Shown: positions 27,663 through 28,694 of the stretch, one piece after another
Layout of the letters: each line of letters opens with the position of its first letter
Position numbering within the stretch: the first letter of the stretch is position 1
DNA from: a virus
DNA length: 39,522 bases
IMG/VR virus record: IMGVR_UViG_3300043015_001152
Span: 1-39,522 of that record
Strand: one strand, 5' to 3'
Notes under the pieces: model-generated
Database searches by the model: none
What the model saw: the letters and a program-made list of their open reading frames with translations, nothing else
Told to the model about the DNA's origin: nothing
Translations under genes and position numbers: made by a program

Positions 27663-27786
27663 ATGCAGAACAAGAAATGAGCACGTAAACGGCAAGCAAA
27701 CCGCTCAGTCTTTAGGTTGGCGCAGAGATTATAAAATCTTAGCGCCTGCATGGTTGGTAAATAGTTATAAGGTGAAAGTAAAATGA
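27652..27786 (+). CDS. Small basic protein between methylase and 104-aa protein
   Basis: A 44-residue basic protein (MKLKCRTRNEHVNGKQTAQS, later WRRDYKILAPAWLVNSYKVK). It overlaps the methylase by 11 bases and the next gene by four (ATGA), which supports it as real. The ribosome site is poor, so coupling is likely. Function unknown. Confidence 0.55.
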   Translation: MKLKCRTRNEHVNGKQTAQSLGWRRDYKILAPAWLVNSYKVKVK

Positions 27787-28097
27787 AAGTAATTAAAGCA
27801 ACAAAGAAACCAGTAACAATAGAGTGTATGGAGTGGATTGGGACGGCTCAGTCAACAAGAAGGGTTTTAGAATTTATGGGACAAAATGTTACAACCAATT
27901 GCAGCAAGTCTAGTGATGCGTTTTTGGATTATCACGAGCATTGTTTAAATTTTGGGTTAACAATAGAGACTCCGAAGGGTGATATGAAAGCAAGTGTAAA
28001 TGATTTTATTATCAAGGGTGTAAGTGGTGAGTTTTATCCATGCAAGCCTGATATTTTTCATAAAACCTATGATGTCGAAAATAACCAAAAAGCATAA
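27783..28097 (+). CDS. Common phage protein ending in GEFYPCKPDIF
   Basis: A 104-residue protein of a widespread phage group, recognised by an N-terminal KKPVTIECMEW-type block and a C-terminal VNDFIIKGVSGEFYPCKPDI stretch (about 76-95). The family's role is unknown. It is the last gene of this transcript. Confidence 0.75.
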   Translation: MKVIKATKKPVTIECMEWIGTAQSTRRVLEFMGQNVTTNCSKSSDAFLDYHEHCLNFGLTIETPKGDMKASVNDFIIKGVSGEFYPCKPDIFHKTYDVENNQKA

Positions 28098-28115: not shown

Positions 28116-28144
28116 TTAAACAAACTCACCGATTTTGCTATAAT
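28116..28144 (+). promoter_or_regulatory. Extended -10 promoter of noncoding RNA/tRNA unit
   Basis: TTAAAC (28116-28121), 17 bp, TATAAT (28139-28144), with TGC directly before the -10. The promoter word GCTATAATTAACTTA resembles GCTATAATAACTTAG at 31385-31399. Confidence 0.7.
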
Positions 28145-28148
28145 TAAC

Positions 28149-28451
28149 TTATCGGGTTTAACGACAGAAGGCCCGATAATCTTTGTTTGACAGCTACGGA
28201 AAGACGGCCCTCAATAGATTGGAGGTGATAAAATCTCCCGCGCAGGGTTAAGCGTAGAAAAGAGCAGTAAACTAACTACGGTCGTGAGATAGCAGTTAGT
28301 AACTCAATTACAATTATATTAACTAATATGGAGCTGTAATCCGAGTTTTGAATATTTACGTTTTGGCGAACGTTAGCAAACCTAAACGATGTGAATCAGC
28401 AAAGAGGTTTTTATGAATGAAGAAGGTTGGGGTTTTTAGAGTTTATTTGAT
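28149..28451 (+). ncRNA. Candidate structured noncoding RNA upstream of tRNA-Gly
   Basis: The 354 bases from 28098 to 28451 hold no credible gene. After the promoter come seven short helices, all exact: TTATCGGG/CCCGATAA (28149-28156 with 28172-28179), CTACG/CGTAG (28194-28198 with 28253-28257) enclosing GGAG/CTCC (28221-28224 with 28235-28238), ACTAACT/AGTTAGT (28271-28277 with 28294-28300), ATTACA/TGTAAT (28307-28312 with 28335-28340), ACGTT/AACGT (28358-28362 with 28369-28373), AAACCT/AGGTTT (28378-28383 with 28405-28410). The tRNA and a terminator follow, so it is one transcript of about 450 nt. I do not recognise an RNA family. Large ornate RNAs such as GOLLD also lie beside phage tRNAs; this is an analogy only. 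Confidence 0.55.
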
Positions 28452-28524
28452 GCTTCTGTAGTGTAACGGTAGCACGCTGTCCTTCCAAGTCAGTAGCGGG
28501 GTTCGAATCCCCACAGAAGCTCCA
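28452..28524 (+). tRNA. tRNA-Gly (UCC)
   Basis: GCTTCTG pairs with CAGAAGC as the acceptor stem, followed by an encoded TCCA. The anticodon loop is CTTCCAA, so the anticodon is TCC. D arm GTGT/GCAC and T loop TTCGAAT are present. The anticodon stem has one T-T mismatch and the T stem base one C-A mismatch, which may lower stability. Glycine codon GGA would be served. Confidence 0.93.
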
Positions 28525-28571
28525 AATACGCTTTCCATGGTGTATTACTTGAACGGTAGAAAATTGAGAGC

Positions 28572-28597
28572 AAAGCCACTTTAACCGGTGGCTTTTT
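28572..28597 (+). terminator. Terminator of the tRNA unit
   Basis: AAAGCCAC and GTGGCTTT pair perfectly around eight bases, followed by T-rich sequence. It closes the promoter-RNA-tRNA unit. Confidence 0.85.
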
Positions 28598-28646: not shown

Positions 28647-28694
28647 ATGGCTATTTCACGCAGAAAAGGCGGCAAAGGTAAGAAGTTCAAATAA
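28647..28694 (+). CDS. 15-residue basic peptide
   Basis: MAISRRKGGKGKKFK has AGGAG seven bases before its ATG, the best ribosome site in this region, and its stop overlaps the start of the next gene (TAATG). Eight of 15 residues are Lys or Arg. It may be a real peptide, such as a nucleic-acid binder, or a leader that couples translation of the membrane gene. Confidence 0.55.
   Translation: MAISRRKGGKGKKFK

Follow-up and report, generated by a model that had tools for sequence, protein, structure and literature searches.

A putative modular structured RNA of marine phages that holds a tRNA or a tRNA-like element in an exchangeable slot

The window analysed here is the whole of a 39.5-kb virus record (IMG/VR IMGVR_UViG_3300043015_001152, 39,522 nucleotides) with a lambda-like gene layout. 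Its early side carries RecE/RecT-like genes, O-like and DnaB-like replication genes, NinG, NinB and a methyltransferase, and its late side a holin-like gene, TerS and TerL. Where the early-type genes give way to the late-type ones lies a region that a preliminary description, made from these letters alone, had proposed to be a closed non-coding transcription unit, with an extended -10 promoter, seven exact hairpins, a tRNA-Gly and a terminator, and possibly a new structured RNA. The individual elements are in place (Table 1), the tRNA being called by both ARAGORN and Rfam with cloverleaf, anticodon and model score all in order, and the stretch is gene-free as claimed, since the plus strand has no ORF of at least 50 aa between 28098 and 28693; no coding match for the unit was found, an outcome that the preliminary description had named as refuting it had there been one. 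Directly behind the terminator, at 28649-28693, is a very basic peptide frame of 14 to 15 codons, MAISRRKGGKGKKFK; similar tiny basic frames are found behind the unit in the related contigs L032, L035 and L037, and one is likewise present in L099, a contig that does not have the RNA.

Table 1. Features of the candidate RNA unit and its left border in the window
Feature	Position	Strand	Description and basis
Last early-type gene	27783-28097
Promoter-like site, extended -10	28117-28144	+	TAAACA-16-TATAAT, TG before -10; consensus scan
Module A, first hairpin	28149-28179	+	Exact 8-bp stem, purine-rich loop, then conserved AATCTTTGTT
Module B	28224-28237	+	Conserved GGTGATAAAATCTC segment
Module D, universal hairpin	28264-28307	+	Stem 28271-28277 with 28294-28300; GUGA loop 28284-28287; invariant G.U pair; covariation, covariance models R1 and R2
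Module E	28301-28347	+	Stem 28306-28312 with 28335-28341; conserved loop GGAG
Module F, small hairpin	28357-28373	+	TACGTTTTGGCGAACGT; conserved in L007, L010, L034, L053 and L069
Remnant of 46-codon frame	28413-28439	+	9 codons including stop; sequence comparison
Slot helix, 5' arm	28438-28449	+	AGAGTTTATTTG, also written AGAGUUUAUUUG; pairs with 28523-28534
Slot insert, tRNA-Gly(UCC)	28452-28524	+	ARAGORN; RF00005, 54.1 bits; encoded CCA 28522-28524
Slot helix, 3' arm	28523-28534	+	CAAATACGCTTT, also written CAAAUACGCUUU; starts with last two bases of tRNA CCA
Terminator hairpin	28572-28595	+	9 pairs, then T-rich; consensus scan

Taken on its own the window is unexceptional. The promoter-like site is part of a block that is repeated almost letter for letter and conserved in 10 relatives, and the terminator keeps its position in the relatives, while the frequency of promoter-like and terminator-like sites in the region is not significantly above that in shuffled sequence. 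The leader (302 nt) has an MFE z score of -0.54, with 25 of 100 shuffles folding as well, and the whole unit one of -1.32. Between 28149 and 28450 there are two hairpins with at least six exact pairs (28149-28179 and 28271-28300) where dinucleotide shuffles give 0.99 (P 0.27), and six with at least five exact pairs where they give 3.75 (P 0.18). The idea that the seven hairpins form a chain beyond what chance provides thus finds no support, and since the window's sequence alone is not beyond chance the evidence must come from relatives.

A short conserved motif was detected by distant BLAST in the Pseudoalteromonas phages Pq0, TW1, XCL1123 and H103, within intergenic DNA that is unannotated or doubtfully annotated. 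Pattern scans of viral contigs yielded further members (L007, L009-L012, L032-L037, L053 and L069), and phages C7 and PHS21 and contigs L131 and L123/L130 were picked up in later searches; the membership is drawn mostly from a single ecological group. Hairpin D, the element common to them, occurs in about 20 phage contigs, and a covariance-model search recovered it in 10 of 16 whole records, once in each. The predicted unit is thus single copy, and it sits at different genome positions: in the window and in Pq0 it precedes lysis or packaging genes, in TW1, XCL1123, H103 and C7 it lies within structural genes, and it always has the orientation of the gene behind it. Hairpin D is absent from L099, whose TerL is 83% identical to that of the window and which has a short leader and a terminator at that place instead, and the other TerL relatives, which are fragments, gave no match to it. 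The varied positions and the absence from L099 point to an RNA gene that moves between phages rather than to a fixed control element. L099 itself (NYWO01000016.1) is filed under an Arcobacter MAG and is likely a wrongly binned phage contig. Used as search keys, GTAATCCGAGTTTTGA and the string of the F hairpin returned mostly chance matches; a hairpin D pattern with one version of the stem had no match in a bacterial genome collection, and the unit had none in E. coli.

Hairpin D covaries strongly. Among its 19 distinct sequences 94.7% of cells are paired, 5 of the 11 pairs have changed on both sides, and there are 18 compensated cells against 4.2 in shuffles, with none of 500 shuffles as good; covariation was counted here with our own compensated-cell tests, a different method from R-scape. 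The signal is present in register only and is lost when the register is slid. The top of the hairpin reads GUC-GUGA-GAU and includes the invariant G.U pair; L131 has a GAGA loop, and the closing pair and loop of L123 are U-GAAC-A. These predicted features of the top are RNA-like. The preliminary description had set beforehand that its helices would fall if homologues showed no covariation, and this hairpin (28271-28300) withstood that test, as did the helix around the tRNA described below; most of the seven helices are variable or unproven. The core of the hairpin (28278-28292) also resembles helix 93 of 23S rRNA (E. coli 2588-2606, around A2602), matching at 13 of 14 nucleotides with one base dropped, a level equalled by 0.6% of random hairpins of the same shape. 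The likeness was noticed afterwards, the G.U pair and Pq0 differ, and it would be a weak lead.

The second well-supported helix, absent from the preliminary description and the most telling of all, encloses the tRNA. This slot helix is known in nine variants, with five pairs compensated and 12 compensated cells, where shuffles give 3.8 and none of 500 does as well, again in register only; the shuffles keep the relatedness of the slot sequences, and these counts are therefore not probabilities. In the window the acceptor stem of the tRNA-Gly abuts the helix. Where the insert is not a canonical tRNA the helix runs on as UGUGNNN/NNNCACA, and at the base of unrelated inserts this extension is 100% paired with its last three pairs covarying freely (0 of 500). 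Both the slot and insert-stem alignments consist of arms cut at fixed positions, and they test the pairing at those positions rather than the alignment. Because the slot helix flanks the tRNA on both sides, the tRNA would be an arm within the RNA. The preliminary description had likened the locus to the large phage RNA GOLLD in that it neighbours a tRNA; the association with a tRNA stands, and the tRNA is better seen as lying inside the RNA than beside it.

What occupies the slot differs even between close relatives. Unrelated inserts occur in relatives with backbones 95-100% identical. The core and 3' parts of L032, L033, L034/L035, L036 and L037 are 97-100% identical, yet between their inserts the identity is only at the level of shuffled sequence: a 59-nt fold in L032, a 138-nt tRNA-like structure in L033, a tRNA-Met(CAU) in L034/L035, a 151-nt tRNA-like structure in L036 and a 69-nt fold in L037. 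Inserts have thus been exchanged at exact borders among near-identical backbones. The tRNA-Met(CAU) has an anticodon stem that we take to be that of tRNA-Ile2. The tRNA-like inserts combine an acceptor stem of seven pairs with a T arm of five pairs and a TTCRANY loop, but a different, long domain stands where a tRNA would have its D and anticodon arms; those of L033 and L036 also finish in CCA. Strictly defined, this motif was found 5 times within the 8.9 kb of units against 11 times in 2.9 Mb elsewhere, and 4 of those 11 proved to be in units recognised afterwards. Units with a tRNA are also found in Pq0, C7, L131, L053 and L069, and no recognisable tRNA is present in those of XCL1123, H103, TW1, L032, L037 and L007, which nevertheless keep hairpin D and the slot. 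Codon compensation was considered as a motive for carrying tRNA-Gly(UCC), and a codon count gave no strong motive, GGA and GGG being minority codons in this phage.

Several inserts turn up again between other flanking stems in further phages, some of them distant phages of Pseudoalteromonas and Vibrio. The XCL1123 insert is also present in HS2 and BS5, and that of H103 in PHS21. L123 has two tandem copies of slot and terminator with different inserts, the first of which is found in 191 Vibrio phage records; in Vibrio phage K172 it closes a tRNA array ahead of a terminator and an endolysin gene. This fold, GCGTAGGATGACCCGCAAGCC..TAAATCGATAAGAGTCAT, is nearly invariant in the 191 records and unannotated there (in K172, L154 1473-1580). 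In HS2 (L151 2370-2600) and BS5 (L152) the XCL1123 insert belongs to an unannotated, apparently structured non-coding unit without hairpin D.

The remaining modules (A, B, C, E and F) are not proven as structures. Module A is confined to the window's own group, and its one compensated pair (G-C to A-U in L009/L069) amounts to weak covariation, with 82 of 500 shuffles as good. Module B stands upstream of hairpin D in most members, including TW1, Pq0, C7 and L131; a long-range helix drawn by eye between this segment and the part after the slot fails in L011. For module E there are compensated pairs in TW1, L010 and the L032 group, with weak statistics from four variants. A 46-codon frame, MRKSRLSLMIEL..., with a good ribosome site lies between module F and the slot (L034 1226-1420, reverse strand); it is complete in L034, L053 and L069, the remnant in the window is in frame with it, and the complete frame has no family match. 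L010 has a different frame, of 62 codons, between hairpin D and the slot.

A search of Rfam 15 with the window and 18 related loci returned nothing beyond tRNA, in line with the preliminary description, which had seen no family match; with two strongly covarying helices, its suggestion of a structured RNA without a family match has held up. We found no description of such an RNA in open-access papers, the literature that our search covered. In ICP1, an abundant non-coding transcript of ~800 nt stands at the start of the lysis cluster (PMC7567579), which is a similar setting in a marine-type phage; ICP1 differs in having no tRNAs, and compared with XCL1123 it has only a terminator-sized match, at another place. 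The inserts of L033 and L036 recall tmRNA (RF00023) in keeping an acceptor stem, a T arm and a CCA with a long domain between, but L033 scores 10 bits against a threshold of 47, ARAGORN finds no tmRNA, and neither a model match nor a tag reading frame was obtained. The tRNA of the window, for its part, belongs to RF00005; what sets it apart from other tRNAs and from phage tRNA arrays is that a helix within a larger RNA encloses it and that it can be replaced.

That this is a family of structured RNAs with a real slot is, on the comparative evidence, very probable. A complete tRNA-Gly with an encoded CCA, the tRNAs in other units and the K172 array that ends in one of the insert folds would all suit a simpler account, a plain tRNA transcription unit whose one product is the mature tRNA, with leader and flanking helix serving just to protect or process its precursor. 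We consider it unlikely, given the six units that keep D and slot without a recognisable tRNA and a slot helix that holds part of the CCA; moreover, we know of no need in tRNA leaders for a conserved covarying hairpin. An account with no functional RNA at all, through chance folding or through a DNA-level element like a recombination hot spot, has in its favour the ordinary single-sequence statistics and a mosaic exchange of modules that a hot spot would fit. The covariation of D and slot in relatives contradicts chance folding all the same, and the retention by diverged phages of an invariant G.U pair and a loop of GNRA type, together with a hairpin D that always has the sense of promoter and terminator, make this whole class of explanation very improbable.

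The position in the window, between nin-type and lysis/packaging genes and with a terminator at the end, is that of lambda pR'-tR' (6S RNA), and the short leader and terminator of L099 at the same place add to the case for a late-operon leader that controls transcription there, perhaps by RNA-only antitermination as in HK022 put. Like put and the 6S leader, the unit is a structured RNA near a phage transcript start followed by a terminator, but it differs in size, in its autonomous terminator and in its place in TW1-type phages; put RNAs, compared here by description only, measure ~70 nt, contain two stem-loops and directly follow early promoters (PMC9378689). With the unit inside structural genes in four phages, hairpin D missing from L099 despite its close TerL, and none of the scanned proteins recognised as Q, a late-operon role is distinctly improbable, and the ~450-nt unit is more likely to be an autonomous non-coding RNA gene than an obligatory leader. 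Nearest in kind are GOLLD and ROOL, which are structured non-coding RNAs that phages and prophages encode close to tRNAs, and the exchangeable slot is what appears to be new. The unit could be a self-assembling scaffold working in the same way without common descent: it too is a phage RNA associated with tRNAs, tRNAs sometimes lie within the GOLLD linker (PMC12286853), and the GNRA loop of hairpin D would be suitable for docking. Yet many GOLLDs exceed 800 nt, the present RNA has one slot with exchangeable inserts as well as hairpin D and is known from sequence, and the GOLLD and ROOL models have no match in the window, whether at gathering threshold or at E up to 10; we consider such a scaffold improbable.

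The best reading is that the locus encodes a modular structured RNA of marine phages, undescribed in Rfam and the open-access literature, that would present a tRNA or a tRNA mimic. For the fuller claim, a modular structured RNA that acts through its insert with the target left unfixed, we regard the chances as evenly balanced, and that the function is exercised by the insert acting in trans is proposed tentatively, a little short of that. The RNA would be made during infection as a free RNA, and the insert would do the work, the RNA presenting or releasing a tRNA-shaped element; since some inserts have no tRNA features, the tRNA shape would be a frequent solution and not a universal one. It would most likely feed or distract host factors acting on tRNA, such as defences that cut tRNAs, and this would account for inserts that change fast while the scaffold stays constant. 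An arms race would be expected to produce that pattern, tRNA-cutting host enzymes are a plausible opponent, and it has been suggested that phage tRNAs are under selection to counter enzymes of this kind (PMC10264068). A decoy or anti-defence role in particular is speculative and somewhat doubtful. The same caution applies to a further conjecture, that phages keep a constant scaffold and docking helix and swap RNA cassettes, be they tRNAs, tRNA mimics that lack the anticodon arm or other folds, with a separate host factor as the target of each; such a locus would be the RNA equivalent of an exchangeable anti-defence locus. Alternatively the RNA may contribute to codon supply or RNA stability or act as a scaffold, and where the insert is a tRNA it may just function as one.

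Why phages carry tRNAs, and large RNAs beside them, has long been hard to explain. With a tRNA lying within a larger RNA, and mimics at the same position in close relatives, the two seem to be alternative ways of doing the same job. If true, the swapping of cassettes on a constant scaffold would explain why some phage tRNAs exist, and isolated Pseudoalteromonas phages that carry the RNA (TW1, H103, C7, Pq0, XCL1123 and PHS21) make the question directly testable.
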